Shown here in pieces: positions 37,494 through 63,094 of a DNA stretch of 64,000 nucleotides. Position numbers and translations under genes: made by a program. The number at the start of each line of letters is the position of its first letter. The first letter of the stretch is position 1. The DNA is from Oscillospiraceae bacterium (GTDB lineage: Bacteria > Bacillota > Clostridia > Oscillospirales > Acutalibacteraceae), in NCBI GenBank assembly GCA_910574995.1, contig CAJTCS010000004.1, positions 124,001 through 188,000 of the forward strand, given 5' to 3'. Below the pieces are notes generated by a model. That model did no database searches and was not told where the DNA came from. It saw only the letters and a program-made list of their open reading frames with translations.

Positions 37494-37690
37494 CGGAACA
37501 CGATTTAAGGTGTTACGGTTGGACATAGTGGAAATAAATTCCCCTATGATTATTCGTAACGCAGATGCAGCCGCGTTACAGATAAATCAAGTGGTAACTT
37601 TGACCACTTGATTTATCTGTAACAAATTAACTCCGCATAGCGTTGCGGATATCTAAAATAGGAACTTTTCCCACTTTACATATCCGTAAC
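37446..37690. repeat. Four 49-bp palindromic units (putative parC centromere)
   Basis: Units at 37446-37494, 37512-37560, 37575-37623 and 37642-37690, each exactly 49 bp, each opening GTTAC (GTTGC in the last) and closing GTAAC, at a 63-67-bp pitch. Each is internally palindromic: unit 1 has CAAGTGGTCAT/ATGACCACTTG and unit 3 is a perfect 21-bp-arm palindrome. Lying just before the ParM-like and ParR-like genes, this is the natural ParR-binding centromere and promoter region. Confidence 0.75.
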
Positions 37691-37771
37691 GGAAATGGTT
37701 ACAAGAAGAAATATTTTAGGTTGGGCGGTCTGCGGACCGCCCTTTGCTGTTATACAGCAGAAAGGAATTTT

Positions 37772-38701
37772 ATGAACATTTTGAATCACAATACGCCGAT
37801 CATCATCGGCATTGACCACGGCTATGGCAACATCAAAACTGCCAGCTGCTGTTTCAAAACCGGCGTGGCCTCCTTTGACAAGGAGCCGACCTTCAAGAGC
37901 AATCTGCTGATCTATGAGGGGCGCTACTATCTGATTGGAGAGGAACACAAGGAATTCACTGCCGACAAAATGGCTGACAGTGACTACTACATTCTGACCC
38001 TCGCTGCTATCGGGCGGGAGTTGAATATCCGCAAGCAGACCTCGGCCCGTATCCATCTGGCGGCGGGCCTGCCCCTCACCTGGGTCAGTGAGCAGAAGGA
38101 CGCTTTTAAGCAGTATTTGCTGCAAAAGGACAGCGTGGACTTTCATTTCCGGGGTGCGGAGTATCATGTTGACTTTGTTGGGGCCGACATTTTCCCCCAG
38201 GGCTTTGCCGCCGCTGCTGACCATCTGCGAGACTTCCGAGGGGTGAATATGCTGGCCGACATCGGCAACGGCACGATGAACGTCATGTATATCAATGACC
38301 GCCGTCCCCAGGAGAAAAAGTGCTTCACCGAGAAATACGGAACCCATCAATGTATGCTGTCTGTCCGGGAGAATCTGCTGAAGCTCTACGGTTCTGCCGC
38401 TGACGAAACGGTGATTGACCGTGTGCTGCGATACGGGACTGCGGAGATCAGCGAGCGGTATCTAACTGCCATCCAGTCAACTGCCAGGGAGTATGTAGCC
38501 GGTATCTTCCGCCGCCTGCGCGAACATGAGTATGACCCGGAACTGATGAAGTTGTATGTGGTTGGCGGCGGTGGCTGTCTGATTAAAAATTTCGGAGAGT
38601 TTGACGCTGGCCAGGTTGTCATCAACGAGGACATCTGCGCCACCGCCAAGGGGTATGAATATCTGGCCCATCTCCGCGCCAGGAAGGGCGGCATGGTATG
38701 A
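37772..38701 (+). CDS. ParM/StbA-like actin-family segregation ATPase
   Basis: 309 residues. Actin-fold motifs: IIIGIDHGYGNIKTA (phosphate 1), NMLADIGNGTMNVMYI (phosphate 2) and LYVVGGGGCLIKNF (adenosine). Such proteins polymerise to separate plasmid or excised-element copies. Start is ATG 37772 with AAAGGA upstream; the longer frame back to 37643 lies in the centromere. ATGA overlap with the ParR-like gene. Confidence 0.85.
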   Translation: MNILNHNTPIIIGIDHGYGNIKTASCCFKTGVASFDKEPTFKSNLLIYEGRYYLIGEEHKEFTADKMADSDYYILTLAAIGRELNIRKQTSARIHLAAGLPLTWVSEQKDAFKQYLLQKDSVDFHFRGAEYHVDFVGADIFPQGFAAAADHLRDFRGVNMLADIGNGTMNVMYINDRRPQEKKCFTEKYGTHQCMLSVRENLLKLYGSAADETVIDRVLRYGTAEISERYLTAIQSTAREYVAGIFRRLREHEYDPELMKLYVVGGGGCLIKNFGEFDAGQVVINEDICATAKGYEYLAHLRARKGGMV

Positions 38702-39799: not shown

Positions 39800-41491
39800 C
39801 TGGCAATTTATCATTTGAAGGCAAAAGTTATCAGTCGGGGAACAGGTCGGTCCGCCGTTGCGGCAGCGGCTTATATGAGCTGTTCCCGGATATATAATGA
39901 TTATGACGGCGTTCAACATGACTACACCCGGAAACAGGGGCTTGTCTGGCAGCAGGTCTTTCTGCCGGATATGGCACCAGCAGAGTGGTCAGATCGGGAA
40001 GTCCTCTGGAATGCCGTGGAGGAAGTGGAGAAAACGAAGGACAGCCGTCTCGCCCGCGAGTTCGTGGTGGCGCTCCCTGTCGAACTGAACCAAGACGAGT
40101 GGATTGCACTGCTGACTGATTTCATCCAAGCCAATTTTGTGGCAGAGGGGATGTGCGCCGATGTCTGTATCCATGATACGGACGGTCACAATCCTCACGC
40201 CCATATCATGCTAACCATTCGACCGCTGACGAAGGACGGCAAATGGCAGCATAAGACGGAGAAAGAGTATCTTTGTGTTAGGGGGAGTAAAGAACAGGGC
40301 TTTACTGCGGCGGAGTTCAAGTCGGCACAGTCCGAGGGATGGGAGAAGCAGTATCAATACAAAGTTGGCAAAAAGAAAGTTTATATGACGCCCTCAGCGG
40401 CTGAAGCGCAAGGGTTAGAGCGTGTATCCAAGTATCCGAAAAGCACCAAATACGGACGACAAAACCCCATTACTGCACGTTGGAATAGCGAAGATCAGCT
40501 TGTCCTCTGGCGGGCAGTATGGGCTGATGCGGTGAACCGGTGTCTGGAACGTTCCGGGCATGATGAGCGCGTCGATCACCGAAGTCACGCCGAGCGCGGT
40601 CTGGATGAGCAACCCACTATTCATGAGGGAGTTGCCGCCCGTGCGATGGAGAAGAAGGGTATTATTTCTGATCGCTGTGAACTGAACCGGCAGATTAAGG
40701 CGGACAATGTTCTGCTGCGGGAGCTAAAATCGCTGGTCAAGAAATTAATGGACGCAGTGAGGAATACCGTTCCGGCAATAGCAGAGGCAATGGAAACCGT
40801 TCGGCAAAAGATGATTGTTTTTCGGTATCAACTATTGCATATTGGAGTTGGAAAAAGGCAAATTACCGATACGCTCCATGCTGTTCAGCCAGACATCAAG
40901 CGGTATGAGGATGTTGTTAAGCAACTCAAGGCCAAGATTAAAGAGCGCCGGGTTTTGCTGGACGAAAAGAAAAATACCCCGGCAATTCAGGTGTTCCGGC
41001 ATCGGGAATTGGCACAGAAAATTGCCACGTTGACCGAAGATATTGAGGAATTGAAAAGCGAAAAGGCCCTGCTGCTCAATCAGCTTAACTGTACGGACGA
41101 TCATGGTATGGGCGAGATTAAACAGCACGTTGCATCTATGGAATCTTCGCTCGAAACGCTGAACCGGAAGGAGAAAAAATATACCGCTGAACTGGATGCC
41201 GCACTGGCGCAGTACGCCGAGCTGCAACAACAGGCGGCGGATATGGATGCCATAGAACTGGATACCACCTGTCACGCTATTCGCTCTGATAAGGAGTGGG
41301 AAACAGTCCAGCGGCTGCAAGCCGCCTATGGCAAGAAGGTTGATTCCGGGATGCTGGCGCAGAGTCGAATGGATGTTGGCGAAATGTTAGGCGAGATAGT
41401 GGAGCCGATATCTATCCGTCAGAAACTGCAACAGTTACAGAGGCAGCAGAATAGGCAAAGTCATGAAAAAGAACGCGACCAGGAGCGGTGA
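39800..41491 (+). CDS. MobA/MobL-family relaxase
   Basis: 563 residues. The family opening AIYHLKAKVISRGTGRSAVAAAAYMSC is present but begins with CTG at 39800, 9 nt after GGAGG (39786-39790); the next usable start (TTG 39815) would remove part of the first strand. The HUH motif is HNPHAHIMLT; the N-terminal Tyr in AAAAYMS is the likely nucleophile. The C-terminal half is a long coiled coil (about 290-560). It nicks oriT and leads the strand to a conjugation channel supplied by another element. Confidence 0.85.
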   Translation: MAIYHLKAKVISRGTGRSAVAAAAYMSCSRIYNDYDGVQHDYTRKQGLVWQQVFLPDMAPAEWSDREVLWNAVEEVEKTKDSRLAREFVVALPVELNQDEWIALLTDFIQANFVAEGMCADVCIHDTDGHNPHAHIMLTIRPLTKDGKWQHKTEKEYLCVRGSKEQGFTAAEFKSAQSEGWEKQYQYKVGKKKVYMTPSAAEAQGLERVSKYPKSTKYGRQNPITARWNSEDQLVLWRAVWADAVNRCLERSGHDERVDHRSHAERGLDEQPTIHEGVAARAMEKKGIISDRCELNRQIKADNVLLRELKSLVKKLMDAVRNTVPAIAEAMETVRQKMIVFRYQLLHIGVGKRQITDTLHAVQPDIKRYEDVVKQLKAKIKERRVLLDEKKNTPAIQVFRHRELAQKIATLTEDIEELKSEKALLLNQLNCTDDHGMGEIKQHVASMESSLETLNRKEKKYTAELDAALAQYAELQQQAADMDAIELDTTCHAIRSDKEWETVQRLQAAYGKKVDSGMLAQSRMDVGEMLGEIVEPISIRQKLQQLQRQQNRQSHEKERDQER

Positions 41492-42647: not shown

Positions 42648-44075
42648 GTGCTTCAGGCTTTTGACACACTGCTTCAGAGAACAGTAGAAGCTGAATTAGC
42701 CGCAAAAAACAGAATAGATGAGCCTTTCCGATATGAATGTTTATGCTGTGGCGAAGAAGTGTATGTTGCAGCAGCGAAAAGCACAAAAAAAGCAGCCCAC
42801 TTCCGCCACCGCCGGGGAAACAGCGACAGAGAATGTGAGTTGTATTTGGGACGAATGGGAATTGATGGTGCCCAAATTGCGGCAAAAAAGAGAGCGCATA
42901 TTAGAACCGAAGTATACTATGACATCAAACAGAAAATGTTTTATGTTGGGATACTATTTCAGGAAGAAAAATTGAAAGAATTTGAAGGTAAGTCTTGCGT
43001 TCTGGAATTTTTCTCCGCATGCAATTCGGTGCCATATGAAAGTATCGCAATAAATCAACAGAATTTTGCTCCAGATAGTATGGTTCTGTTTCCGTTGAAG
43101 CTTACAACCAACGATTGCTATATTAATATTTCTGGCATGAATTATCGTATTCGCCATGAGATCCTGTATAGTAACGATTTTCCGACATTTTTTAAAATTT
43201 CACCAAACGAGGATACGAACGGAAAATCCAAGCGTATTGTGGGCGGAAAAATCTATACAGCTACTCCCTACTATATCATTGCAAGGGATCGGAACGCAAT
43301 TCAGAAAATAGCCAAGCATAGAGAACATGTTTCGGTTAACCAGATTGATGAAATTGATGCGTTTGGAAGCACTGTTTACGGTACAAATCTTCAGATTTTA
43401 TCTGCCAATGCTGAATTGGTTGATTTGTTTTCTTACTTTAACTTTGATTTAGAAACTGCTCAAAGTGTGTTGCAATTATGGCCCCCGATGTATTCTGTAG
43501 AAGGAGTTCTTTGTACAGATGGCAAAAAAGCGTACCTCAGATCCACATTTGAGCTAGTGCCGCATAGCAATATTTCCTGTGAAACGGATGCTCTCAGAAA
43601 GTTTGATAGTCTATTCGAGGTAGATTTATCGTATCCAGTTCAGATTTGCTTTAATAACGTAGATATTCAATTTGAGCAACAGCAATATAGTTCTTTGCGG
43701 ATGGATCAGCCTTGCGAACAAATCACAGTGCCAACGGTAAATGTTACAGAGTGTAGTAGTTTTTATCTGATTGATGCTGATGGATATAGGGAACTTCCTG
43801 TTGGGATTCATTTTATAACTGAGTCCAGTAAGATTGTGCAGTATCGGAGCAACTATCCGGTGGCTGTATTTAAGCGTCCAAAACCCATTCCTCCCAGCAG
43901 GGTAGAACTTCTTCGAGATGTGTTATCTTATTATAAGGTAACGCTTCCGTTTGATGAGCAACTTATAATTGGGTGTAATCTCAGTGCAGTTGCTCAGTCT
44001 TACATAGAAGAATGTCGGATTACGAATATAATCAATAAAAAGGCTTTGGACTTCATAAAGGCAGGTAAAGTATGA
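42648..44075 (+). CDS. CoiA-like zinc-finger protein, first gene of the helicase operon
   Basis: 475 residues from GTG 42648 (GAAGGAGGCGGG upstream). Near the N-terminus Cys31, Cys33, Cys34, His51, His54 and Cys63 (YECLCCGEEV...AAHFRHRRGNSDREC) look like the zinc knuckle of CoiA-type proteins, which is linked there to a nuclease domain. The remaining 400 residues are beta-rich and unrecognised; I see no clear nuclease triad. It overlaps the next gene by 4 bp. It may recognise nucleic acid for the helicase complex (inference). Confidence 0.6.
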   Translation: MLQAFDTLLQRTVEAELAAKNRIDEPFRYECLCCGEEVYVAAAKSTKKAAHFRHRRGNSDRECELYLGRMGIDGAQIAAKKRAHIRTEVYYDIKQKMFYVGILFQEEKLKEFEGKSCVLEFFSACNSVPYESIAINQQNFAPDSMVLFPLKLTTNDCYINISGMNYRIRHEILYSNDFPTFFKISPNEDTNGKSKRIVGGKIYTATPYYIIARDRNAIQKIAKHREHVSVNQIDEIDAFGSTVYGTNLQILSANAELVDLFSYFNFDLETAQSVLQLWPPMYSVEGVLCTDGKKAYLRSTFELVPHSNISCETDALRKFDSLFEVDLSYPVQICFNNVDIQFEQQQYSSLRMDQPCEQITVPTVNVTECSSFYLIDADGYRELPVGIHFITESSKIVQYRSNYPVAVFKRPKPIPPSRVELLRDVLSYYKVTLPFDEQLIIGCNLSAVAQSYIEECRITNIINKKALDFIKAGKV

Positions 44076-45748
44076 ATTATTTTCAGTTGTTAACTAAAGA
44101 AGATATTCAAACTGTTTGCCGGAGTTTTCCTCACAAAGAAATGATTCAGGGCTTCAAAAAGAATCCAAAAGCTTTTAATGAAATGGCTAAAGGATACCGT
44201 CCACAATCGATTTCAGAGGATAGGGGGCGTAAATTATTATTAGAAAATAGTCATACAAAACTTGTCACAAATATGATTGAAGAGTTCCTAAAGCGGTGGA
44301 GTTCAGAAATTAGTCAACGCATTGAAGAGTACACTAATGCAGGCAATTCAGAAATCGAATCCCATTTGAAGGCTTTTCAAGATACAATATTTCCTGATGG
44401 AATAGAGCTGTATTTTCGGCTGATAGAGAAACCCATTAGTGCAGAATATGCTTCCCTGCTTACTTCGGCTGTTTCTGTTTTAGCGTCGGAGAGGAAAAAA
44501 ATGAGCAACATTGTATCAGCTCCGCAAGTTAAAGTGGGAGATTTGGAGCAAGAACGAAAAGATCATAAAATTGAAATTAGAGCAAAAGACTCAGAGATCA
44601 AGAAAAGGGACAAGGCGATAGAAGGCTTAAATACAGAGATTGCCAATTTATCTACAATGCTTGAGACCTTGCAAGGGGATTTAAGTCGCAAAATTGAACG
44701 AATACAAGAACTTGAAGAGTCGCAGAATGCTCAGAAAAAAGAGTTGGAAGATGCTATTTCCACAGCACATACATTTGAGGTCACAGTAAATAGGCAAAAA
44801 GCTGAATTGCAAGAGGCACTGAGCGCTGTTGATGCAGGCAAGAAACGAGAAGCCGATCAACAAGTGGCAATCGATTCGCTGCAAGAAAAATTGTCTAATA
44901 TTGAAAATGCACTGGCAGAGATGAGGGAAAAACCATATCAAGAAAGCGATCAACTTCTTTATCCAACTGATATAGACGAGTTTTCTGAATACCTCGGATA
45001 CAATCTTAAAAGCATTGGCGTCAACGGTAGTACTGATGAATATAACCTATTGACAGAATATCTGTGCGATATTTTGTTCCAGAATAAACCTATTATGTGC
45101 AACCGTGTTTCTGGGATGGCATTGGCTCGTTGTGTATCAAATGCTCTTTGCGGGACAAAATCCATTAAGATTCTTCCTTATTCGTCGGAAATCACCAGCA
45201 AGGACATTTTGTACTATTTAAACTCAGAAGAGAGAATCTTAGTTTTGGATGGTTTTCTGGGCAATTTTAACGAAATGGAATTGATTCCCATAGCCACAGG
45301 GATAAGAGGAAAAATCATCTTTATGACGCTGGAGTATGAACGTACAATTGCATATCTTCCAAAGGAGGTCCTCTTATATTTTAATTATTTAAACGTCAGT
45401 AGGATTAAGGATTTCTTCTCGGAGAAGCCAATAGATGAAGACGCTACCGAAATTATGGAACAATGGATTCCGAAAGAAAGCAAGGCTGCGAACCGAAATG
45501 TTGAGAGACTTTGCACTGAAATTATGAAGCAACTAGGCTTTGGCAATGATATTTCGCTGCATATTGCCCAGAGAATGGTTTCGGAGGAAAAATTGGCTCA
45601 ATATCTTGCATTTTCAATTCTCCCCTATAGTTGTGAAGCACTCGATTACAGACCATATGAAACATCGGAAAGGTTGCAAAAATACGCTGGAGAACAAGGA
45701 AAATGTAGATACAAGTCACTGCTATTAGGATGGTTTGGAAATGAATAA
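44072..45748 (+). CDS. Coiled-coil protein with a degenerate AAA-like C-terminal domain
   Basis: 558 residues. N-terminal helical domain (1-150), long coiled coil (about 155-290, KDSEIKKRDKAIEGLNTEIANL...), then a domain that follows an AAA plan. PIMCNRVSGMALARCVSNAL (about 340-359) stands where a P-loop would be but lacks GKT/S, ERILVLDGFLG (about 387-397) resembles Walker B, and GKIIFMTLEYERTIAYLP resembles sensor 1. It may be a non-hydrolysing structural AAA protein. No named family recognised. Confidence 0.55.
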   Translation: MNYFQLLTKEDIQTVCRSFPHKEMIQGFKKNPKAFNEMAKGYRPQSISEDRGRKLLLENSHTKLVTNMIEEFLKRWSSEISQRIEEYTNAGNSEIESHLKAFQDTIFPDGIELYFRLIEKPISAEYASLLTSAVSVLASERKKMSNIVSAPQVKVGDLEQERKDHKIEIRAKDSEIKKRDKAIEGLNTEIANLSTMLETLQGDLSRKIERIQELEESQNAQKKELEDAISTAHTFEVTVNRQKAELQEALSAVDAGKKREADQQVAIDSLQEKLSNIENALAEMREKPYQESDQLLYPTDIDEFSEYLGYNLKSIGVNGSTDEYNLLTEYLCDILFQNKPIMCNRVSGMALARCVSNALCGTKSIKILPYSSEITSKDILYYLNSEERILVLDGFLGNFNEMELIPIATGIRGKIIFMTLEYERTIAYLPKEVLLYFNYLNVSRIKDFFSEKPIDEDATEIMEQWIPKESKAANRNVERLCTEIMKQLGFGNDISLHIAQRMVSEEKLAQYLAFSILPYSCEALDYRPYETSERLQKYAGEQGKCRYKSLLLGWFGNE

Positions 45749-46748
45749 ACTGCTAAATATAATAGCGAACGATCTATCTATAGTCCAATATTTTAGAGAA
45801 TCAGACAATGATTTTACATATCGGGTTTGTTACTCGGCCTTGGCCTTATGGATGTTAAAATTGACCTCAAGTCGTGAGAATGGTGTAGTAGGAATAAGCA
45901 AACAAACTCAGTCTTTAAAAATTGAAGAATTGTTGTTGCAATATCAAGAATATTTCAAGCTAAATCCATCCTTCTTTGCTCATGACAAAAATAAAGAGCA
46001 CATGTTGTCGCGCCATATTCGAAGAGTTTATGAAGAAACTGGATATTTGTTTTCAGATGAGAATAACCATAGCGTTGCGGCGAATTATGGAAGAACTATC
46101 TGTGCCACTGATGGAAATCTCTTTTTCGGTAATCCTGAATCTGGTTATTGGATGAATGGATTGGGAATTTATTGCCCTACCGCTGTGAACGATGTGGATT
46201 TATTTGAGGCTATGCTTAGAGATACGTTGACGATTGACGAATATATAACCGTAAAATATAATCCATTAGATTTTGAGGAACGAGACCTCGATGTTCATGA
46301 GTTAAATTTTTTTGATTCGACACGGCCTAAACCTCCTTCAAGTTCATGGCATACAGAGCAAATAACCGATAAGTCGATTGCACGCAACAACAACTGGGTT
46401 ATGTATAGGACGCTGATTGACGAGACGCATCAAATTCTATTCAAAGAAGAGCCCCCAGATTCTGATAAAGGGCGTTTAACTAGTTTTGAGATACGGAGGT
46501 TATATTGTGCGTTAAAGGCTAAATATGGTGCGCCCATTATTGCATGGTTTAATAGGCTAGATGATCTCTATTCGCAGATTCGCATTTCGGCGCAGTTACC
46601 AAATCGTGAATACTATTTTATGCTGTTATTTGCATGGCCAGAACAAAACGCTTTCAATAGGACTAAGTTTATCTGCAAAAACAATATCTTGCCAACCGTA
46701 GCGAGAATGCTATGTAATATCGGTATTGAGATTAGGGGGTACGAGTAA
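45741..46748 (+). CDS. Unrecognised protein in the helicase operon
   Basis: 335 residues from ATG 45741, overlapping the preceding gene by 8 bp; its stop shares one base with the helicase ATG. No membrane segments or known motif. Visible: [40 protein letters not shown] and a C-terminal [20 protein letters not shown]. Tight coupling says it is a core part of the system; the function is unknown. Confidence 0.6.
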
Positions 46749-49700
46749 TGTCGGATGCTAAGGGTGTACAAGAATATTATGCGGCAATTCGTAATCGCTT
46801 GTCTAACTATATTAAATCTGATTATCTTGCTAACAGCGAGACTCTGCTTCTTTACGCAGACGACTTGCTTGGAGAAATAGTTGATACAAACGCAAAAATT
46901 GCGCAAGAACCTTATATTGAAACAGCTGCTTCTTATGAAAAAATTACAGATGGGATAAAGAACCTTGCGCACCTTGATGCAGGAGTAAAAAGCACTCTAC
47001 TCAAACTTGTAAAAGCTAAGTTAGGTATCTTTTCAACGCCGTTCAAGCATCAAGTAGATTCTTTAGAAAACTTTGCACAGGGAAAAGATTTATTTGTATC
47101 GACCGGTACGGGCTCAGGTAAAACAGAATGTTTTCTTTGGCCTATCATTGCAAAATGTATTGATGAAGCTCGGAATCGTCCCGCATTTTTCAAGAAAAAT
47201 GCGGTCAGGACTCTCATTATTTATCCAATGAATGCTTTGGTTTCTGATCAACTGGCCAGATTTCGCAATATCATGGGCCGAGAGGAATTTTTGAAAATAT
47301 TCACCCAGGATACTTATGCTACACGAATCCCTCATTTTGGAATGTACACCGGGCGCACATCATATGCTGGCCTACCCAAACCTAGTAAGAACAAAGAACT
47401 TGCAGAGGCTTATAGGAGACGTTACTTGGTGGATGAGAGCGCCCCGGAAGAAAAAAAGATTCAGCAGAAGAAGAGGATCGAAGGTTTCAAGAGAATCAAT
47501 AAATATCCTGCGCGCTATGGCGAAAACGGGATGGAAATATTCATTGATCACTTGGAACAGAATATTCATATGCCATCTCCGTATGACGCTGAACTGATTA
47601 CAAGATTTGAGCTGCGAGAATGTCCACCAGATATTCTTGTGACCAATTACTCCATGCTTGAATATATGCTGATGCGAAAATTGGAATCTAAGATCTGGGA
47701 TAGCACCAAGGAGTGGTTACAAGAGTCGGAAGACAATAGGCTTCTAATTGTTCTTGATGAAGCACATATGTATCGTGGTTCTGCTGGCGGTGAAATAGCT
47801 CTTTTGCTTGACCGCTTATTTGATCGTCTTGAAATAACTGCTGATGATACTCAGTTTATTTTAACTACGGCAAGTATGCCAGATGATAAAAAGGCACGCA
47901 ATGACTTCTATGAGGGGCTTACAGGAAAGAATGCACAAAAGTGCAAATTCCTAACTGGCACCAGAGAAAAACTGCCTGAATATGAACTTGTTCCAACTAA
48001 TGCTGATCAACTGGAACATATTGGAACAACGCAAGTATATGGAAGAGAAGCCATTCAAAGAATAAAAGACTTTGCATCTGCAATTTTCAATGAGCAACTC
48101 CCGGATTCTATTGATTTAAGCGAGGCTAAAACATGGCTCTATGATAATCTCCCTCGCTATCAAGGCTTTATTGATTTATATCGAGTCTGTCGAGAGGGTG
48201 CAGAATCGTATAGCAAAATTAAGTTTCACGTGTTTGGAAGCGATAATGCAGATAATGCATTGGATTCGTTGCTAGTCATTGTTTCTATGGCTGAAAAGGA
48301 CGGCAATTTACTGTTTCCTATCCGCCTGCATATGTTTGTAAGAGGATTGCAGGGTATTTATGCTTGCTCAAATCCTCATTGTCCTCATGCAAAATATTCG
48401 GAAAAAGAAAAATTACCTCTTGGCAAGATCATTTCTACGCCAAAAGATCAATGTAACTGTGGTGGTAAGATTTATGAACTAGTTAATCATACAAAGTGCG
48501 GTGCTCTGTATTTCAAAGTCTATGTGAAGCAAACCGCAGGGCAGGCGTTTTGGTATGTATTCCCGCGCAAGGGTATTAGTGGGAGCGGTGATGATCTCAA
48601 AGAAATGTTGCTTTACATCGTGCCGGAAGAATACATTCTTGAAAAAGGCGACAAAATGGGGGCATTAGATCCGTTTACCGGGAAACTCTTCACAACACCG
48701 AAGGATAGTTCAACTCTGCTCAAAGTGCTATACACTGAAAAAACTACAAAGAAGGGAACATCTTTTGTCTTCGGGAAATGCCCGAAATGCCGCAAAGTTA
48801 TGCCGATAAAAAAGCCAACTGATTTTGCCACAAAAGGGAATATTCCATTTTATAATCTAACAAAAGCACAATTCGAGCTGCAACCGGCAAAATCGGACTT
48901 TGTGAATCAAGGGAAAAAAGTTCTGCTATTCTCTGATTCGCGGCAGAACGCCGCAAAACTGGCCCTGGACTTGTCTGACTCATCAGATGCTGACACTTTT
49001 CGGCAGGCAGTTATATTGGCGGGCATAAGACTAGGCAAATTTGGACTGTCTATGAGAGAGTTATATCCCGCTTTCCTAGAGGTGTGTATCAATCAGAAGT
49101 TATCATTCTTTGCAGGAAAAAGCAAGCGGAAATTTGACACCGACAAAGACACCTTTGCGAGAAAAAACAGGCATGGGAGAAAGGTTGACTACACGAAATT
49201 AGCCACAGATTACTTCTCTTCCCCACCAGAAGATTATGGAAAACATCTACTTAAATTTTTTACTGAAAGCCCTCGATCTTTCAAAGATATTGGGCTTGGT
49301 TTTTTAGCGCCCATGAAAAATTCTATAGATAGCGTACTTTATGAGTTGGAGGATGATGATATAGCAGTTAATGAAGATTTGCTATATCAGATTCTGGTCT
49401 TGCTTTTCTGGGATGTCATGGACACCAATGCCGCATTAGATAGCCACATTTCAGATGATATTAGACGATCCCTCCCAGGAAGGAGCAAAAATGACAGGGA
49501 TAGGTTTGGAGTCGGTGCTGATTTCTATCAAGAACTGGATCATGATTTGATTCGTGAAGCGCAAGTAATATTGTCTCTCAATGAAACCGAAATGAACAAA
49601 TTGCTGGAATCTGTAAAAACAGAATTCTTTGAGGCATCCAGTGAGGGAAAATACTACATCAAGCTGTCATCGGTTCAGATTTGCATTGCTGACAAAAATT

Positions 49701-51928
49701 TCATTTGGTATCGCTGTGGACGTTGTGGAAAGATATCCCCATTTAAATTGGGCAGCCTTTGCGGTGTGTGCTTCAAGGCTAAAAATGTTCATGCTATCAA
49801 TTATGAAGAGTTATCGAGATTCGATTTTTGGCGTACCCCCATCTTAAATACGGTAGGTATTAAAGACAATATCCATAAAATAAATACTGAGGAGCATACG
49901 GCACAGCTGTCTCATAAAGATGCCCAAGGGGATATCATCAGCCGAACCGAAGACTATGAGATAAGGTTCCAGGATATTGATGCTGGCGAGCACGGTGAAA
50001 ATGCAATTGATGTGTTAAGCTGCACAACAACTATGGAAGTCGGGATTGATATTGGCTCCCTTACTGCTGTTGGGCTTAGAAATATTCCACCTATGCGAGA
50101 AAACTACCAACAGCGCGCAGGGCGTGCTGGGCGAAAAAATGCAGGAATCTCAACTATTGTCACATACGCATTCGGTGGTGTACATGATAGCTATTATTTT
50201 AAGAATCCACATGAGATGATCTCAGGCGAACCTCGTCGTCCTTGGATCGATAGGGACAATCCTAAAATTGAGCAACGCCATTTGAACATGAAAGCACTAA
50301 ACGCTTTTATGTTCAGCGATCTAATGAGTGGCTATGACAGCATAACAGAGATTGGAATTGTAGATTTCTGTGAAAGCTACGGTGTCGCGTTCCTTGAATG
50401 TTTAGATTGTTTAAGTTTGCCAACTGAACAGACCAGAGAAATGTTCCTAAAAATAAAGGACAAGGTGCTCGATGAGAAGAAACGCAAGGAATACATACAT
50501 GACGACAAACAGACCTCAGCCTTTGATGTGTTCTATTCAGAAGGCTTTATCCCATCGTACTCGTTCCCCAAAAATGTTATTAGATTTTTCGTGGAAGAGG
50601 AATCTCCGTATGGGAAAAAGTATCCCCGTGTGGTGAAATACGCTCCCGAACGAGACATTGCCGTTGCCATCAGCGAGTACGCCCCAGGGCGCTTTGTAAC
50701 AATTGATAAGAAAATCTACAAGAGTGGCGGCATTTATGCAAATCCGAAGCCTCACGGATACAATACAAACCAAGCTGAGTTTTACTTTAGCAATGGCGAC
50801 TATTTCAGTGAAATTTTGGTTTGTAGTGAGTGTAATTGGTTTGGACACAAAGAGGAAGGGGTTGATACTTGCCCATATTGCCATGCTCCAGTTGAAACGA
50901 AGAAAATGCTTAGACCTTGGGGATTTGCTCCTGAGCGTGGTGATGATGTAAAGTTTGAAGACGAGGATGAAGATAAAACATACGCTGAAGCTCCATATTA
51001 TTCCCATGTTCCGGAAGATTCACAGATGATTCCCTATAAAGGGCAAATTCGTTTTGCCAACTTGGAAAATCGACAAGTTCTAACTATTAATATGGGAAAA
51101 TCAAAACATGGCTTCAATATTTGCCGCTGTTGTGGTGGTGCAGAAGTAGCTGGTTCTAAAAATACAGGCAAACCTAAGATAACACAACCATTCCATAATA
51201 ATGCACCAATATGTCGGCATGGTGTGGTGGAATCGGAAGTCTATCTGGGGTATGAGTTTTTGACTGATATGTTCATGCTTGATATCAGGTATGATACTAC
51301 AAAGCTGGTAAGCAATAAATCTACACAGGAGAAAATACTTCTCAGAATCGCAGCTACAACCTTGCAAGAGGCAATTAAGAAAGCTGTATCGTTGGAACTA
51401 GATATTGATTATAACGAGATCAACGGTGGTTGGATGTCCAGAATTGATGATGAGAACATGCTCCACCTGGAACTGTTCTTTTACGATAACCTTACAAGTG
51501 GAGCAGGTTATTCATCATTGATAGGGGGTGTTTTGGAAAAAGTCTTACAACGCACAAGGAATATTCTATCCACTTGCAACTGCTCTCGTACATGTAAAAA
51601 TTGTTTGGATAATTTCTATAACCAGCGAAATCACGAATTATTTGATCGGCATCTTGGATTACAGCTTTTAGATTACGCTGAAACCGGAATTCTTCCAGAG
51701 GACTATGAACGTTCAGAGCAACTGGGCTATTTAATTCCTTTAAAACACTTGATAATCGAGGAAACAGGTGTTTCCGAGGAGCAGATAGCAATGGACTTTG
51801 AGGTTCTCCCGGCTTTGTATAAGAAACCTAGAAATACTGAGAAAAAGATGTATCTGAATCCATACGATTTGATTGACTGGCTACCGAATACATTTGTGGA
51901 TTATATAGCTTTATCGAAAAGAAGGTGA
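46748..51928 (+). CDS. Giant SF2 helicase with DUF1998-type C-terminus (DruE/DrmA-like)
   Basis: 1726 residues. Walker [10 protein letters not shown] (118-126), DEAH (337-340), motif III-like [35 protein letters not shown] (motif V) and QRAGRAGR (1122-1129). Several zinc clusters are spread along it: CSNPHCPH...CNCGG, CPKCRK, CGRCGK...CGVC, CSECNW...CPYC and CRCCGG. The C-terminal [17 protein letters not shown] (from 1610) is the signature of DUF1998 helicases, found in Druantia DruE, DISARM DrmA and MrfA. Length and lone-helicase layout favour DruE. It is the motor of the system. AT-rich, clearly acquired. Confidence 0.82.
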
Positions 51929-51935
51929 TTAACTA

Positions 51936-52778
51936 ATGGGTGTGACTCGTTCGCCACTTCGATATCCGGGAGGGAAATCCAAAATTTATAATAATATCCG
52001 GAATCTCATAGTAACGAATGAGTATACTGGCAGAACATATGTAGAGCCCTTTGCCGGGGGATTCGGTGTTGGTATCGCACTCTTGGAAGACAATATAATC
52101 GAACAGGCAATAATGAATGATTTAGACATTCATCTCTATCATTTTTGGGATGCTGTATTACATCAAACAGAGGCTTTAATCAATCTTGTTCGTGAAACAC
52201 CCATTACCCTTGACGAGCGTATGAGGCAGAAGCAAATTTATTCAAATGAGGAATCTCCTCCTCTATTAGATGGGTTCTCTACACTCTTTTTAAATCGAGT
52301 AAATTATTCTGGGGTTCTATTTGCAGGGCCGCTTGGAGGAAGAAACCAGAACAGCGCATATCCACTAGGATGCCGATTCAATAAAAACAATATTATCGAA
52401 AGAATACAAACTGTTGCACGCTTTAGAGATCAAATTTTCCTCCATCACCGGGATGCCTGCGAATTGATAATAGAATTGCTTGCAGAAGAGAACAATGATT
52501 TATTCTTCAACATTGACCCTCCATATGTAATCAAAGGGAAATCATTGTATAGTGAATACTATACTGAGGAGGACCATCGAAATCTTGGAGATATTATTCA
52601 TGAGCATCTACAAAACGTTCCTTGGATTATGACATATGACAGTTGTGATTTAATAAGGGAGATATACCAAGACAACTTAATTTTAGAATATGGGATGTTT
52701 CATAGTGCGCATAACCGCGCGCAGGGACGTGAACTTGTTATTACAAACCTTCCTGAAGATCAATTTACTTGGGGATAA
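51936..52778 (+). CDS. D12-class (Dam-like) DNA adenine methyltransferase
   Basis: 280 residues: LRYPGGKSK near the start (AdoMet motif X), VEPFAGGFGVG (motif I), FLNRVNYSGV (target-base region) and NIDPPYVIKG (catalytic DPPY). AGAAGGTG precedes the start, 7 bp after the helicase stop, so it is the last gene of that operon. It probably marks host DNA as self for the helicase system, as methylases do in DISARM and Druantia II (where DruM is a cytosine enzyme). Confidence 0.85.
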   Translation: MGVTRSPLRYPGGKSKIYNNIRNLIVTNEYTGRTYVEPFAGGFGVGIALLEDNIIEQAIMNDLDIHLYHFWDAVLHQTEALINLVRETPITLDERMRQKQIYSNEESPPLLDGFSTLFLNRVNYSGVLFAGPLGGRNQNSAYPLGCRFNKNNIIERIQTVARFRDQIFLHHRDACELIIELLAEENNDLFFNIDPPYVIKGKSLYSEYYTEEDHRNLGDIIHEHLQNVPWIMTYDSCDLIREIYQDNLILEYGMFHSAHNRAQGRELVITNLPEDQFTWG

Positions 52779-52887: not shown

Positions 52888-52913
52888 GAATTTACCCTTG
52901 ACAAATTGCTTCT
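52888..52913. repeat. Right element-end repeat
   Basis: GAATTTACCCTTGACAAAT then TGCTTCT, directly before the codon CAA (52914) at which recombinase homology resumes. Almost identical in inverted orientation at 54663-54689 and similar at 14927-14946. Confidence 0.6.
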
Positions 52914-54506
52914 CAAAAGCTGATTTTACAGAAATATGCTGACGAACACCACTTTTTCAACACGCGCTTTTTCGTAGACGACGGATTTTCCGGCGTGAGC
53001 TTTGAGCGTGAGGGGCTTCAAGCCATGCTGCATGAGGTTGAAGCCGGGAACGTGGCGACCGTCATAACAAAAGACCTCTCCCGTCTGGGACGTAATTATC
53101 TGAAAACCGGCGAACTGATAGAGATTGTTTTCCCCGAATACGAAGTGCGCTACATTGCCATTAACGACGGCGTAGACACAGCGAGGGAAGATAACGAGTT
53201 TACCCCTCTGCGGAACTGGTTCAACGAGTTTTACGCCCGCGACACCTCAAAGAAAATCCGGGCTGTCAAACAGGCAAAGGCGCAGAAAGGCGAGCGCGTC
53301 AACGGCGAAGCTCCTTACGGCTACCTTATCGACCCGGATAACCGCAATCATCTGATACCCGACCCGGAAACGGCACACGTCGTAAAACAGATTTTTGCAA
53401 TGTATGTACGGGGCGACCGTATGTGTGAAATCCAGAACTGGCTACGGGACAACGAAATACTGACGACCGTCGGGGAACTGCGCTACCGCAGAACAGGAAG
53501 CAACCGCCACCCCCGCCCACAGCTCAACGCATGGTACAACTGGCCGGATAAGACGCTGTACGACATTCTGACAAGGAAAGAGTATTTAGGGCATACCATA
53601 ACCGGGAAAACCTACAAGGTATCTTATAAGTCGAAAAAGACGAAAAAGAACCCGGAGGAAAAAAGGTATTTCTTCCCCAACACGCACGAGCCTTTGATTG
53701 ATGAAGAAACCTTTGAACTTGCACAGAAGCGGATTGCCACCCGGCACCGCCCGACAAAGGTTGATGAAATTGACCTGTTTTCCGGGCTTCTCTTTTGCGC
53801 TGACTGCGGCTACAAAATGTATGCGGTACGCGGAGCCGGGACGCTTGAACGGAAACACGCCTACACTTGCGGCAACTACCGCAACCGGGCAAGAAATGAT
53901 ATGCTCTGCACTACGCATTATATCCGCAAAAGCGTACTGAAAGAACTTGTCCTTGCAGACTTGCAGCGCGTAACATCTTATGTGAAAGAGCATGAACAGG
54001 AGTTTATCGAAACAGCCAACGAGTGCAGCGCAAAGGCAGTACAAAAGACGCTGACACAGCAGCGGAAAGAGCTTGACAAGGCGCAGAACCGTATGAACGA
54101 GCTGAACATCTTATTCCGCAAGCTCTACGAGGACAACGCTTTAGGGAAACTTTCAGATGAACAATTTGCTTTTCTGACTTCCGGCTATGATGAAGAAAAA
54201 AAGACGCTGACCCGGAGGATTGCGGAGCTGTCACAGGAAATCGACAACGCCACCGAGCGCAGCGCGGACGTGAAAAGGTTTGTCGCACTGGTACGCAAGT
54301 ACACCGCCATTACCGAACTGACCTACGAAAACGTCCATGAATTTATTGACCGTATTCTTATTCACGAACTGGATAAGGAAACGAACACCCGCAAAATCGA
54401 AATCTTTTATAGCTTTGTCGGCAGAGTTGATACAGGCGACAAGCCTACCGAAAGTATCTCCTATTTCAGACAGATAGGAGCCGACGTAAAGAGTTATGCT
54501 ATCTAA
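52902..54506 (+). pseudogene. Serine recombinase lacking its N-terminal catalytic segment
   Basis: Reading resumes in frame at CAA 52914 (QKLILQKYADEHHFF) and runs to a stop at 54506: resolvase remainder with VITKDLSRLGRNYLKTG, recombinase domain, zinc ribbon (FCADCGYKMY), coiled coil and IEIFYSFVGRVD. About 30 residues including the catalytic Ser are missing; they match the fragment at 31644-31733. The internal ATG-like start at 52995 would give an inactive protein. Excision of the 21-kb element would restore the gene. Confidence 0.8.
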
Positions 54507-54519
54507 CATACATCAAAAA

Positions 54520-54566
54520 GAGGTAAGATAACACCCTCTGCAAAAAAGGTATCGTTATCTTACCTC
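54520..54566. terminator. 13-bp perfect hairpin after the broken recombinase
   Basis: GAGGTAAGATAAC (54520-54532) and GTTATCTTACCTC (54554-54566), 21-nt loop. No T-run. It lies between two recombinase fragments and may be a terminator or an old end. Confidence 0.55.
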
Positions 54567-54847: not shown

Positions 54848-54978
54848 CGTGCGTAATGTCACTTGGAAAATGAATATTACCATCTTCTCGTGGTGGCGGA
54901 ACAATAGCGTTAAGCCATTAGCAATAAATGTCTTGACTATGGTCGCCCCCACCAAAAATGCAAAAGGAGATAAAAAAC

Positions 54979-55584
54979 ATGAAAAAATGGGTTTATATTA
55001 GCGCAGACTACGATGAGAATAGTGGTGATCAGGATGTTATCAAGCAACTCAAAAAATGGTCTGATGACGACCGTTTCAAGGTCACTTTCACCGATACTGC
55101 ACAGGTCGCTTCTGGAAGCGTGTCCAAAGATTCTGACTGCCGTGCCTGCGACTTGAAGGAGGAGTTCAACAAGCAGATCAACGCATCGTCTTCCGTCATC
55201 ATCATTATTGGGGATAGAACACGGTTCCGCACTGCTGGCGACATCTGCCCACGGACAACCAATGGTCAGTCAACTAGCGAGTGTACACCATATAAAGGAT
55301 ACACACGCAAGTTATGTAAAATATCTGTGCGCCCATCCTCGGATGGTGATGACATAAGTAAAGTTAACACTTACTCCTATATTCGGCATGAATTTGAACA
55401 GGCAAAGAAGCGTGGGAAAAATATTGTCGTTATTTATAACTCCTTGAACAATATGTCTTCGTGGCTCCCCTCCTATATGAATGATTACAAAGATGTTGCC
55501 CATCCATTCTGGAAAAAGAATGATAAGGGCGAGAAAGTAGGGGACTATGAATTTATCAAGAAAGCGTTAGGGTTCGATGATTAA
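54979..55584 (+). CDS. ThsB-like TIR protein (Thoeris)
   Basis: 201 residues. The TIR fold is visible: KKWVYISADYDEN (strand A), FKVTFTDTAQ, SSSVIIIIGDRTRF (strand D) and YIRHEFEQAKKRGKNIVVIYNSL, where the Glu in HEFEQA is in the expected catalytic place. In Thoeris, ThsB senses phage and makes an NAD-derived signal. Start is ATG 54979 (AAGGAG 11 nt upstream). It overlaps the membrane-macro gene by 8 bp. Confidence 0.75.
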   Translation: MKKWVYISADYDENSGDQDVIKQLKKWSDDDRFKVTFTDTAQVASGSVSKDSDCRACDLKEEFNKQINASSSVIIIIGDRTRFRTAGDICPRTTNGQSTSECTPYKGYTRKLCKISVRPSSDGDDISKVNTYSYIRHEFEQAKKRGKNIVVIYNSLNNMSSWLPSYMNDYKDVAHPFWKKNDKGEKVGDYEFIKKALGFDD

Positions 55585-56389
55585 ATTTCTAAGAAAATGT
55601 TTCTTTTGGGCATTGGATGTAGCCGCTATAGTTTTTACTATCGTTCCGGAGTCTGTTTTCGGCGAATACAAGTTGATTGAGAAATGTTCTGACAATAAAA
55701 ACATCATTGTAAACCGCATCTTACTTATTGGGGTAATTTTTGTAGCGGTTATTATCTTATATACAATAGCCAGATTTTTGCGGTGCCGAAAAACTATCAA
55801 AAACGGCAATTATAGCATTTGCATTGAGTACGGAGATTTATTCAAGAAAAAGGGAAAGAAAGTAATTGCCTTCGATGAATGCTTTACAACAGAGATAGGT
55901 GAAACAGCTCCGTGCATAAAATCGAATTCTGTGTGCGGGCAATTTCTCCAAAAGTATTCTGCGGACGATGTTCAACAAAAGATTGAAAATGCACACTTAC
56001 GACAGGCTGCGGGACGATCGCATTTTCAAAATAAGATTAGTTATGAAATCGGCCAGATAGTTCCATACAATGAGGAGTTTTTACTTACGCCATTTGCAAA
56101 GCTAGATGAATCTGGTTTGGGCTATATGCCAACCAAAGAAGACTACCTAAATTTCCTTGCATTATTATGGAAGGAAATTGATGAAAACTACGGGACATCA
56201 AATGTATATGTAACAATTTTCGGTTCGGGACGTACCCGTATGTTTGATGGACTATTAACACTACAGGATTTGCTTGACATGATGATTTGCTCATATAGAC
56301 TTAGTGATCATAAAATAAAATCACCTTATAGGCTCTGCATCGTGTGCAGAAGAAAAGACGGTGTCTCATTAAATAAGATATCAACATAA
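55577..56389 (+). CDS. ThsA-like effector with two membrane helices and a macro-type domain
   Basis: 270 residues. Two membrane segments (about 8-28 and 46-67) and a soluble domain (about 90-265) that includes AFDECFTTEIG, LRQAAGRSHFQNKIS, YEIGQIVPYNEEFLLTPFAKLDE and YVTIFGSGRTRMF. This fits the macro domain of type II Thoeris effectors, where a TIR-made ADP-ribose derivative triggers membrane damage. Coupled to the TIR gene. The alternative is an unrelated membrane sensor, but the pairing argues for Thoeris. Confidence 0.72.
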   Translation: MIKFLRKCFFWALDVAAIVFTIVPESVFGEYKLIEKCSDNKNIIVNRILLIGVIFVAVIILYTIARFLRCRKTIKNGNYSICIEYGDLFKKKGKKVIAFDECFTTEIGETAPCIKSNSVCGQFLQKYSADDVQQKIENAHLRQAAGRSHFQNKISYEIGQIVPYNEEFLLTPFAKLDESGLGYMPTKEDYLNFLALLWKEIDENYGTSNVYVTIFGSGRTRMFDGLLTLQDLLDMMICSYRLSDHKIKSPYRLCIVCRRKDGVSLNKIST

Positions 56390-56480: not shown

Positions 56481-56654
56481 GTTTGTCAATAAGTTGTAAA
56501 GGGGCAACAACTCATCCAACCGAACAATAATACATGCTGAAGGTAAACAGGCAACGAGGTTTAGTGATAAACACTTTGTTGGCTTGAATTTCCTACAATT
56601 TGGCGTTATTGATTGAATCCACCATCGATGGCTATAGTTTCAAGACAGGTCTGT

Positions 56655-56744
56655 TCCGATAATATCCCTTATGAGAAAGTGGGGGATGCCGTCACGCCAC
56701 TAGAGGTTCCGTTCGAAATTCCGGAGAGCTGGGAATGGGTGAGG
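56655..56744 (+). repeat. Inversion repeat 1, silent copy (90 bp)
   Basis: Identical over 90 bp, inverted, to 60278-60367. Encodes the end of the N-terminal spacer (PFEIPESWEWVR) just before recognition domain 1. Confidence 0.9.
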
Positions 56745-57293
56745 ATTCGCTCATTAGGTGAGATTATTCGAGGTAGCGGAATCAAACGGACAGAAACAAC
56801 ACCAACTGGAATGCCTTGCGTCCGATATGGAGAACTGTATACAACATACCAGACTTCATTTACAGAAACAGTTTCCTTTATTCCTGAGAGTCTTTATGAT
56901 ACTTGTAAGCGTTTTTCATATGGGGATATTCTAATGACGCTCACAGGAGAAAATAAACCGGATATTGCAAAAGCGGTAGCATATATGGGCAACAAGCCTG
57001 TTGCTGCTGGCGGAGATTTGGCCTTTTGGACACGACATGGTATGAATCCGCTGTTTCTCTCATATCTTATGACCTCGCCCCATGTCATCAATCGTAAAGT
57101 TGCACTTGCGACTGGCGATATAATTGTGCATATCTCAGGAGACAAATTGGGAAGTATTTTGATTCCCATTCCGCCATTGAAGGAACAGGATCGAATAGTT
57201 GAACAGATACTTAAGACTGAGACAGCAATTAAAGAATACTCTGTTAGAGAGGCTGAATTGCAATCCTTGAAGGAAGCCTTTCCCGACTTCCTC

Positions 57294-57483
57294 AAGAAGT
57301 CCATCCTCCAACAAGCTGTCCAGGGTAAACTGGTTCCCCAAGACCCGGAAGACGAACCGGCGGAGGTCCTGCTGGAGCGCATCTGGGGGGAGAAGCAGCG
57401 GCTTGTCCGGGAGGGCAAAATTAAGAAGGACAAGCACGAGTCCATCATTTTCAGACGGGATAATTCCCATTATGAGTTGGTGG
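57294..57483 (+). repeat. Inversion repeat 2, silent copy (190 bp)
   Basis: Identical over 190 bp by eye, inverted, to 59524-59713; weaker identity continues to about 57,540. Encodes the central spacer between the two recognition domains. Confidence 0.88.
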
Positions 57484-58065
57484 GTGGCGTGGAGCGGTGC
57501 ATTGACGAGGAATTGCCCTTTGAGATTCCGGAAAGTTGGGAGTACATAAGACTTAATGATATTGGCGAGTACCGAAAGGGTCCATTTGGCAGTAGTTTGA
57601 CCAAAAATATGTTTGTGCCAAAAGGAGCAAATACAGTTAAGGTATATGAGCAGAAAAATGCGATACAAAAGGACTATGCGCTTGGAACATATTACATTAG
57701 ACAAGATTATTATGAAGCAAAAATGAAAGGGTTCACTGTATGCCCAGGAGACATTATTGTAAGTTGTGCCGGAACTATAGGCGAAACTTATGTTATGCCG
57801 AAAAACATTGAACTTGGAATAATTAATCAAGCCCTCATGCGGATGCGCATTTTTGCGCCCATAAATATTGAGTATTTTTTGCTATACTTTGATTATGTCA
57901 TTAAACAACAGGCTCGTAAGAACAGCAAAGGGTCTGCGATAAAAAACATACCACCATTTGAAGTATTTAAGCAAATTTTACTTCCACTGCCACCCATAAG
58001 CGAGCAAAAACGTATAGTCGCAAGAGTTCATGAACTATTCTCAATCTGCAATCAGCTATAAAACC

Positions 58066-58095
58066 GGGGCATACGCCGGACATGGCATATGCCCC
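58066..58095. terminator. Hairpin between the convergent silent cassette and recombinase
   Basis: GGGGCATACGCC/GGCATATGCCCC with one mismatch and a 6-nt loop, just past both stop codons. No T-run. Confidence 0.5.
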
Positions 58096-58101
58096 CGAAC
58101 T

Positions 58102-58911
58102 TTACCAATCAACAACGGTGTCCACAATCTCCCGCTGCTCTGTGGCGGTTTTGCGGAGGTAGATGCGGGTCGTTTCAATGCTCTCATGTCCCATTAAGTC
58201 GGCAAGAAAAGCAATGTCGTTGCACTTTTCCAAGAAGTTCTTTGCGAACCGATGCCGGAACGAGTGCGGATAAACAACGGCACTATCAATGCCATAGCGT
58301 TCTGCCAGCTTTTTCAGCTGGCCGGAGATGCCCCGCGTTGTGATTCGCTCGCCGAAGCGGTTCAAAAAAATGAAGCCGCTTTCCTTCTGCCTGTCGTTGA
58401 GCCAGGAAAGGGCCTCACCTCGCAATGACTTGGAGATGTAAATTCGCCGCAGCTTGCCGCCCTTGGAATAGAGGTCAAGATGACCCAGCCGGACATGTTC
58501 CGCTTTGATCTGGATCAATTCGCTGACCCTCGCGCCGGTGGCCGCAAGGAAGCGGATCACAAAATACCAGAACAGCTCATCATCCCGCTTCAGACAGAAT
58601 TTGAAGTATTCGTAATCGGCTTCGCTGATGACGTTTTCCAGAAACGATTTCTGCTGCACCCGGACAAAGGGTTGCTTCCACTTTTCCTTGCCGATGCTCT
58701 CCAGATAGCAGTTGATGGCCCGGAGGCGCAGGTTCACCGTCTGCGGCTTGTAGCTGTCGATCAGCCACGCTTTGTAGGCTCGAAGGTTCTTTTGTGTAAC
58801 GGAACTGTACTGGACATCAAATTGCCTGGCAGCGAAAAGATAGGCTGAGATGGTGTTTTCCGAGAGGTTGGAACCTCTCAAGTGTCTTTCAAAGTTTTCG
58901 TAGTCAATCAT
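58102..58911 (-). CDS. Tyrosine recombinase (hsdS invertase)
   Basis: 269 residues. N-terminal SAM-like domain and a catalytic domain with the full set: Arg in AATGARVSELIQI, Lys in SKGGKLRRIYIS, HSFRHRFAKN (His and Arg), LMGHESIETT (His) and nucleophile Tyr in TTRIYLRKT. It sits between the two hsdS copies and directly after the active one, as in PsrA/XerC-like invertases of phase-variable type I systems. Start is ATG 58911. The ribosome site lies in the loop of a strong hairpin. Confidence 0.88.
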   Translation of the reverse strand: MIDYENFERHLRGSNLSENTISAYLFAARQFDVQYSSVTQKNLRAYKAWLIDSYKPQTVNLRLRAINCYLESIGKEKWKQPFVRVQQKSFLENVISEADYEYFKFCLKRDDELFWYFVIRFLAATGARVSELIQIKAEHVRLGHLDLYSKGGKLRRIYISKSLRGEALSWLNDRQKESGFIFLNRFGERITTRGISGQLKKLAERYGIDSAVVYPHSFRHRFAKNFLEKCNDIAFLADLMGHESIETTRIYLRKTATEQREIVDTVVDW

Positions 58912-58937
58912 GGTGAAAGACCTCCTTTCACCATGAT
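58907..58937 (-). promoter_or_regulatory. Hairpin sequestering the invertase ribosome site and start codon
   Basis: Perfect 13-bp arms ATCATGGTGAAAG (58907-58919) and CTTTCACCATGAT (58925-58937) with a 5-nt loop. In the minus-strand mRNA the AAAGGAGGT ribosome site spans one arm and the loop, and the ATG (58911-58909) is paired in the other arm. Invertase translation should be low unless the hairpin is opened, for example by ribosomes finishing hsdS 31 nt upstream. Confidence 0.7.
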
Positions 58938-58942
58938 TATAC

Positions 58943-63089: not shown

Positions 63090-63094
63090 GTTTA

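Follow-up and report, generated by a model that had tools for sequence, protein, structure and literature searches.

Does a five-gene operon on a mobilizable element of an Oscillospiraceae bacterium encode a new kind of defense system, or a relative of Druantia that carries a DNA methylase instead of DruA? We present here a computational analysis of this operon, which lies in a 64,000-bp stretch of DNA (the window; positions 124,001 to 188,000 of contig CAJTCS010000004.1, assembly GCA_910574995.1) of a 3.45-Mb genome. A sequence-only reading had taken the operon for a possible undescribed defense system, with none of the partner proteins of Druantia or DISARM recognizable. We find that it is almost certainly a DruA-less variant of Druantia type I, in which homologs of druB, druC, druD, and druE are followed by the gene for a D12-class adenine methylase.

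The five open reading frames (ORFs) delimited by that reading were all found at the same coordinates on the + strand (Table 1). ORF1 and ORF2 overlap by 4 bp, ORF2 and ORF3 by 14 bp, and ORF3 and ORF4 by 1 bp, and a gap of 7 bp separates ORF4 from the methylase gene. The GC fraction is 0.37 to 0.43 across 42 to 53 kb of the window, versus 0.47 to 0.56 across 35 to 42 kb. Coordinates, GC content, and Pfam matches uphold the picture of five packed, AT-rich genes with the features read in them.

Table 1. Features of the window, numbered from its first nucleotide.
Feature	Coordinates	Strand	Description
druB-like gene (ORF1)	42648-44075	+	475 amino acids (aa), GTG start; N-terminal CoiA/DUF7830-like Cys/His knuckle, rest without Pfam match
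Divergent druC-like gene (ORF2)	44072-45748	+	558 aa; helical head, ~130-residue coiled coil, C-terminal AAA+-like domain without Walker A
druD-like gene (ORF3)	45735-46748	+	337 aa; TTG start, or ATG two codons on
druE, type I (ORF4)	46748-51928	+	1726 aa; DEAH/YprA-family helicase, C-terminal MZB/DUF1998 Cys signature
D12-class N6-adenine DNA methyltransferase, alpha lineage (ORF5)	51936-52778	+	280 aa; FAGGFG and DPPY motifs intact
Mobilizable element	31734-52912		~21.2 kb (edges accurate to within a few bases); interrupts a serine-recombinase gene
Large serine recombinase, probable integrase of the element	35159-37042	+	Pfam Resolvase, Recombinase, Zn_ribbon_recom, DUF4368
ParM/actin-like protein of the element	37643-38701	+	Pfam ALP_N, MreB-like_C
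MobA/MobL relaxase of the element	39815-41491	+	Pfam MobA_MobL, 308 bits
Split serine-recombinase gene, left fragment	31644-31733	+	Alignment to the uninterrupted copy in L169
Split serine-recombinase gene, right fragment	52913-54506	+	Without N-terminal part of catalytic domain; Pfam Resolvase from model position 48 of 145
Thoeris pair	54958-56389		ThsB (TIR-like, PADLOC 8.8e-88); ThsA with macro domain (1e-97)
HsdS-like gene	56613-58061	+	
Tyrosine recombinase gene	58102-58911	-	
HsdS-like gene	58943-60550	-	
HsdM-like gene	61560-63098	-	

Three of the proteins match PADLOC models nearly end to end. ORF1 matches DruB1 (PDLC00003; E = 1e-99, model positions 1 to 476 of 477), ORF3 matches DruD1 (PDLC00008; E = 3.7e-107, positions 1 to 333 of 338), and ORF4 matches DruE1 (PDLC00013) with 1876 bits over positions 2 to 1770 of 1776, the runner-up being DruE2 with 628 bits. 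The Pfam domains of ORF4 are DEAD, Helicase_C, and MZB (MrfA zinc-binding). ORF1 stays below the Pfam thresholds for DUF7830 (25.1 bits; cut-off, 27.5) and CoiA_N (13 bits; cut-off, 26.3); among 29 aligned DruB proteins, DUF7830 is found in 22 and CoiA_N in 9 at E ≤ 0.01, and residues C31, C34, H54, and C63 are invariant. A CoiA-type nuclease is not proposed for DruB, as the alignments contain no conserved acidic or Lys residue. DruD gave a confident AlphaFold2 model (predicted local distance difference test score, 91.6), which matched nothing in the PDB at E ≤ 0.001 in a search that could have missed its fold, and no function is guessed for it. ORF2 combines a coiled coil with an AAA+-like domain lacking a Walker A motif. 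Its HMMER match to PADLOC DruC1 is limited to the coiled coil (2.4e-4), and Foldseek against the PDB gave nothing at E ≤ 0.001 (best, 3.9e-3). An active ATPase in DruC was considered and rejected: the Walker A pattern is absent from 16 of 17 proteins, with a single chance-like match in L051 (L numbers designate the loci retrieved).

Relationships to the Escherichia coli proteins were determined by hhalign, using profiles of 17 sequences per protein from methylase-bearing loci only and of 5 to 6 sequences from the DruA side, with no sequences shared. The reference druABCDE operon is annotated in E. coli E62 (NZ_CP022393.1, read as L115). DruB matched E. coli-type DruB at 96.8% (E = 2e-10) over 71 N-terminal columns, DruC matched DruC at 96.5% (E = 9e-10) over 348 columns that are partly coiled coil, and DruD matched DruD at 86.8% over 82 columns. 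Four mismatched pairings, run as controls, each gave less than 1%. With a larger query set, the DruC match was 96.1% over 125 N-terminal columns, and an intermediate DruC set matched at 99.6% over 440 columns. The PADLOC and hhalign matches indicate that all four core proteins are of Druantia I descent. An undescribed system is ruled out, since DruB, DruD, and DruE match named profiles; the partners said to be unrecognizable are DruB1, DruD1, and DruE1 by PADLOC and, in ORF2, a divergent DruC, and the sequence-only reading had itself named a match of the three small proteins to DruB, DruC, and DruD as contrary to its proposal. Such loci receive very high scores from the DruB1 and DruD1 models (in the window, and 568 bits in the L012 genome), whose training sets therefore probably included sequences related to this operon. 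Between the window and L012, identity is 64% for DruE, 54% for the methylase, 34% for DruC, and 27% for DruB; judging by these values, DruB and DruC are the fast-evolving components.

The wider family was sampled by similarity to the DruE of the window. A search with a six-sequence DruE alignment returned 16 viral loci and 567 genome loci, the best 80 of which were taken, so more distant types are undersampled. A two-sequence DruE pattern had no match in viral contigs, and DruD alone as the query gave no close relatives in genome contigs or plasmids. Loci were fetched with up to ~10 kb of flanking DNA per side, far less in some cases, and gene absences hold within that range. Of the 107 DruE proteins found, 98 were placed in a FastTree tree drawn with a midpoint root; nine loci that were partial or scored below 480 (L008, L023, and L028 to L034) were left out, and L013, with druB, druC, and a partial druD at the end of its contig, is not counted. 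One side of the tree has 25 rows, 16 of them with DruA, and the other has 73, none with DruA; the latter clade includes the window, so the absence of DruA looks old. Searches with PF14236, the DruA family, formerly named DUF4338, found nothing in the window's own genome, where the built-in controls of the search were silent as well. Across 26 genomes, mostly of unstated completeness, the same family was found in 4 of 4 locus-positive controls and in none of 22 DruA-less genomes. A divergent DruA was found neither with PF14236 nor with a hidden Markov model of our own (two seeds, three rounds); L063, L077, and L082 are among the loci with little DNA upstream of druE. With DruA missing, the locus is classed as a DruA-less variant and not as a full member of Druantia type I. 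That 73 of 98 sampled DruE rows have no DruA nearby bears on annotation rules, in a sample chosen by similarity that does not measure general prevalence.

ORF5 matches Pfam MethyltransfD12 with 79 bits (cut-off, 22). Its best PADLOC match is PD-Lambda-5_B (2e-93, 310.7 bits), and in the PDB it matches 7m6b (E = 1e-14) and DpnM (2dpm; E = 4e-5). When all ORFs of the fetched loci were searched, druB, druC, druD, druE, and the methylase gene were found in the same order and on the same strand in 17 loci, including the window, with druE and the methylase gene separated by -4 to +53 bp. All 17 methylases retain the DPPY motif as well as motif I, FAGG(F/A)G. Chance is excluded by the recurrence of the five-gene set in 16 other loci, which also rules out an assembly artifact. 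In the DruE tree, the 17 loci belong to a single clade of 22 rows, and a D12 methylase follows druE in none of the 76 rows outside it. The contigs of the 17 loci are labeled Bacillota and Bacteroidota and are mostly metagenome assembled, so single host labels could be binning errors. No restriction enzyme family was detected in a Pfam scan of the ORFs adjoining the methylase, a scan that an enzyme of unrecognized kind would escape.

The 17 methylases fall into two lineages, alpha (8 loci: the window, L012, L035 to L038, L043, and L048) and beta (9 loci: L039, L040, L042, L049 to L053, and L091), which are 33 to 43% identical to each other. In a tree with 23 outside D12 proteins, from which L129 was excluded as L051's own contig (L156), alpha forms one clade (support, 100/100) separate from beta, and the approximately unbiased (AU) test rejects the grouping of all 17 in a single clade (p = 0.035). 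In a 25-row DruE tree, one clade of alpha-bearing loci (p = 4.7e-5) and one clade of beta-bearing loci (p = 1.1e-9) are both rejected. Since the DruE and methylase trees disagree and two lineages occupy the slot, the methylase was exchanged in place; druBCDE lineages have thus obtained methylases from two pools at the same position. No Druantia gene lies within ~0.4 to 13 kb per side of 23 outside D12 genes, namely those of all tree rows but L132 and, in addition, that of L127, too short to be placed in the tree.

Other DruA-less relatives carry a different methylation module. In another subclade of 18 tree rows (support, 82), 10 of the 18 loci have type II restriction-modification (R-M) genes immediately 5′ of druB, in the same orientation. 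A 5-methylcytosine (m5C) methylase gene followed by that of an Eco47II-family restriction enzyme is found in L020, L056, L061, L065, L070, and L085; L062, at a contig start, has the Eco47II-family enzyme alone; and L019, L059, and L064 have an m5C methylase followed by an EcoO109I-family enzyme. Pfam names were read on L061, L059, and L064 (methylase), and the remaining R-M genes were named by similarity to these. Five members with upstream DNA (L057, L058, L067, L074, and L093) have no R-M genes upstream of druB, L088 and L090 have little or no DNA there, and L099 has an unrelated m5C methylase downstream only. Papers are cited here by PMC number. Eco47II homologs cut GGNCC (PMC10305163), and EcoO109I cuts RGGNCCY (PMC7337904); from family membership, we infer GGNCC-containing sites for the R-M proteins of these loci. 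The two types of restriction enzyme share no significant BLASTP similarity (E = 2) and their methylases are 36% identical, so a common core site could be inherited in the methylase.

Among known systems, E. coli druABCDE (Druantia type I) is the nearest, with homologs of DruB, DruC, DruD, and DruE in the same order and a DruE of the DruE1 class; the present locus differs in having no DruA, a strongly divergent DruC, and a D12 adenine methylase after druE. In Druantia type II, DruM is a cytosine methylase. The likeness to that type is the pairing of a DruE helicase with a DNA methylase, whereas here the methylase is an adenine-type D12 enzyme and DruE is of type I (1876 versus 628 bits). Type II is given as DruE, DruF, DruM, and DruG, and PADLOC type IV as DruE, DruF, and DruL (both PMC8565338). 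No match to DruM, DruF, or DruG was found at E ≤ 0.1 for the five operon proteins (for DruE, among the best 25 of 36 families). A DruE helicase is also common to type IV, but the DruE4 model scores 581 bits here against 1876 for DruE1, and neither DruF nor DruL is among the matches listed for the five proteins. DruH of type III is not among the matches listed for the five operon and ten neighboring proteins (for one neighbor, the best 25 of 108), nor are DrmB and DrmC of DISARM. Like the present locus, DISARM and ARMADA (gene content from PMC12458937) combine a YprA-family helicase with a DNA methylase; the helicase here scores 1876 bits with DruE1 versus 46 bits (5e-13) with DrmA, and no second helicase or PglX-type methylase is found among the five operon proteins. 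PD-Lambda-5 (PMC9519451) supplies the best PADLOC match of the methylase through its B component, but here the methylase is tied to druBCDE instead, and PD-Lambda-5_A is not among the matches listed for the 15 proteins scanned.

The operon is carried by a mobilizable element. Window positions 30976 to 31733 and 52913 to 54532 match adjoining DNA in L169 (another genome, same order). The same empty-site junction is found in a second such genome, L171 (75 to 76% identity), and, in part, in L170, from the window's own genome, where the recombinase gene has an interruption of its own farther on, at another point. The flanks being contiguous there, 31734 to 52912 is an inserted element, and druBCDE with the methylase gene makes up its right-hand terminus, stopping 134 bp short of the edge.

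That DruA-less cores have repeatedly acquired methylation modules speaks for a functional link rather than hitchhiking, and we consider it likely that the methylase is functionally coupled to the operon. Together, the D12 and R-M associations suggest methylation-based self/nonself discrimination. More specifically, the methylation may be a self-mark that is read by DruBCDE, a proposal for which we hold the chances to be even. In this scheme, host DNA would be marked by the methylase at a short motif. Recognition and licensing would fall to a module of DruB (Cys/His knuckle), DruC (coiled coil and AAA+-like domain without Walker A), and DruD, which would set DruE free on DNA that is incoming or being replicated and does not bear the mark, for DruE to unwind or block. 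A preprint (PMC12458937) predicts that type I DruE carries, at its C terminus, a nuclease of Vsr type that is inactivated. With this mechanism included, the reading of the locus as an anti-phage operon with a Druantia type I core and a D12 methylase instead of DruA, delivered by a mobilizable element, may equally well hold or fail. More tentatively, DruBCDE could be a restriction engine that is addressed by methylation and has no specificity fixed in itself: lineages that lost DruA or never had it would take up interchangeable methylation modules, which define self, and DruA-bearing lineages would use DruA instead. The modules of such an engine would possibly be the two D12 lineages after druE and the Eco47II- and EcoO109I-type m5C R-M pairs before druB, both centered on GGNCC. 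In the open-access PMC literature, nothing was found on druBCDE with a D12 methylase or with Eco47II or EcoO109I R-M genes. No answer to how type I Druantia discriminates phage from host was found in the excerpts available, where two recent mechanism papers treat type III. The natural series of DruBCDE loci with DruA, an adenine methylase of either lineage, a GGNCC-type R-M pair, or none of these makes self-recognition testable by module swaps on one core. The sequence-only reading had looked to co-occurrence of the five genes elsewhere, seen in the 17 loci, and was correct that DruA is missing (PF14236 in the window genome and 22 relatives, with four positive controls), that an adenine rather than a cytosine methylase is tied to the operon (D12 by Pfam, 17 of 22 clade rows), and that a mobilizable element carries it (relaxase, serine recombinase, and empty site in L169). 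Its new Druantia-like subtype using adenine methylation holds, in gene content and evolution, as a variant of the type I core that lacks DruA and is associated with a methylase, while the role given to methylation in defense is conjecture.

Several findings weigh against a self-marking role of the methylase. Neither DruA nor this methylase is nearby in 65 of the 98 tree rows. In four members of the 22-row clade (L041, L044, L045, and L046), full-length druBCDE stands with the methylase slot unoccupied by such a gene. Hosts evidently tolerate DruBCDE in the absence of this enzyme, which therefore cannot be an indispensable antidote everywhere, unless its place is taken by other methylases, which were not searched for. 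L041 has different DNA 3′ of druE; L044 and L046 (Peptoniphilus) both have a 659-aa gene there, a Schlafen-type helicase by Pfam in L044; and L045 is basal in the clade. L047, in which the contig turns to unrelated sequence inside druE, is broken or chimeric and not assessable. No homolog of the window methylase was found in the L041 and L045 genomes (E ≤ 0.001), and the L044 and L046 genomes have distant D12 proteins only (E = 1.7e-6 and 8e-4). Near-copies reduce the 17 loci to fewer independent cases (the methylases of L039, L040, L050, and L053 are 92 to 97% identical). The AU test rejects a joint alpha and beta clade only modestly (p = 0.035) and does not establish separate origins for beta1 and beta2 (p = 0.28). 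It also presumes groups defined in advance, whereas a sequence motif served to define alpha and beta after the first DruE tree had been viewed.

Four other explanations were weighed. It is possible, though we doubt it, that the methylase is a useful passenger with no role in DruBCDE, shielding the element or host from other restriction enzymes, as many orphan D12 methylases on phages and plasmids may do, with the druE end as the growing end of the operon. The four methylase-free relatives, the position of the operon at the very end of the element, and the D12 relatives on phages and plasmids (38 phage and 58 plasmid records matched the window methylase, and 296 and 89 a beta methylase) all fit such a passenger. 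However, two lineages were exchanged at one slot, and a passenger need not be replaced by a functional equivalent; the methylase is also confined to one DruE clade of the sample, at a constant position, in contigs labeled Bacillota and Bacteroidota. Rather improbable is the reverse of self-marking: methylated or hemimethylated DNA would be what DruBCDE detects or what licenses it, the methylase would produce that signal instead of protecting (for example, to distinguish old from new strands), and DruE would act at replication intermediates. In line with it, type III DruE loads on 3′ single-stranded DNA and has been proposed to act on replication intermediates (PMC13192584), and the absence of the methylase from intact relatives is easier to grasp if it is not an antidote, but relatives without a nearby methylase would then have no signal. 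Very unlikely is a canonical Druantia type I that lost druA recently or keeps it elsewhere in the genome: the four core proteins are all type I-like, but DruA was absent from the window genome and from 22 relatives while all four controls were found, and none of the 73 clade rows has it. Least credible is that the methylase belongs with the type I R-M genes at ~56.6 to 63 kb of the window. The HsdS-like and HsdM-like genes start ~4 and ~9 kb away, yet they lie outside the inserted element (edge, 52913), and this assignment is largely refuted by the methylase accompanying druBCDE in 16 other loci.

Several minor observations concern related or neighboring genes. Druantia-related D12 methylases adjoin a 550- to 560-aa ATPase-like gene in L147 (7852 to 10448), L146 (8028 to 10658), L150, and L151, with an additional ~500-aa gene beside the pair in L147; such pairs are possibly another methylase-based defense module. 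By eye, several neighbors of the outside D12 genes are ATPase-like, and one is annotated as ParB-like. A small Cro/C1-type helix-turn-helix (HTH) gene lies upstream of druB in several loci, including L035 (5631 to 5906), L039 (5251 to 5526), and L009 (6829 to 7062). It is HTH_26 by Pfam in L035 and L039, and L009 is similar. A related HTH is fused to the N terminus of the Eco47II-type m5C methylase in L061, and this type of HTH is a candidate shared regulator of Druantia and R-M operons.

Near the operon, a search for RNA elements gave one match only, far under its gathering score. The ~21.2-kb element is nested, sitting in the serine-recombinase gene of another mobile element. Just outside it lies a Thoeris pair, followed by type I R-M genes from 56613 to 63098, and the two HsdS-like genes on either side of the tyrosine recombinase gene look like an invertible specificity-gene arrangement.

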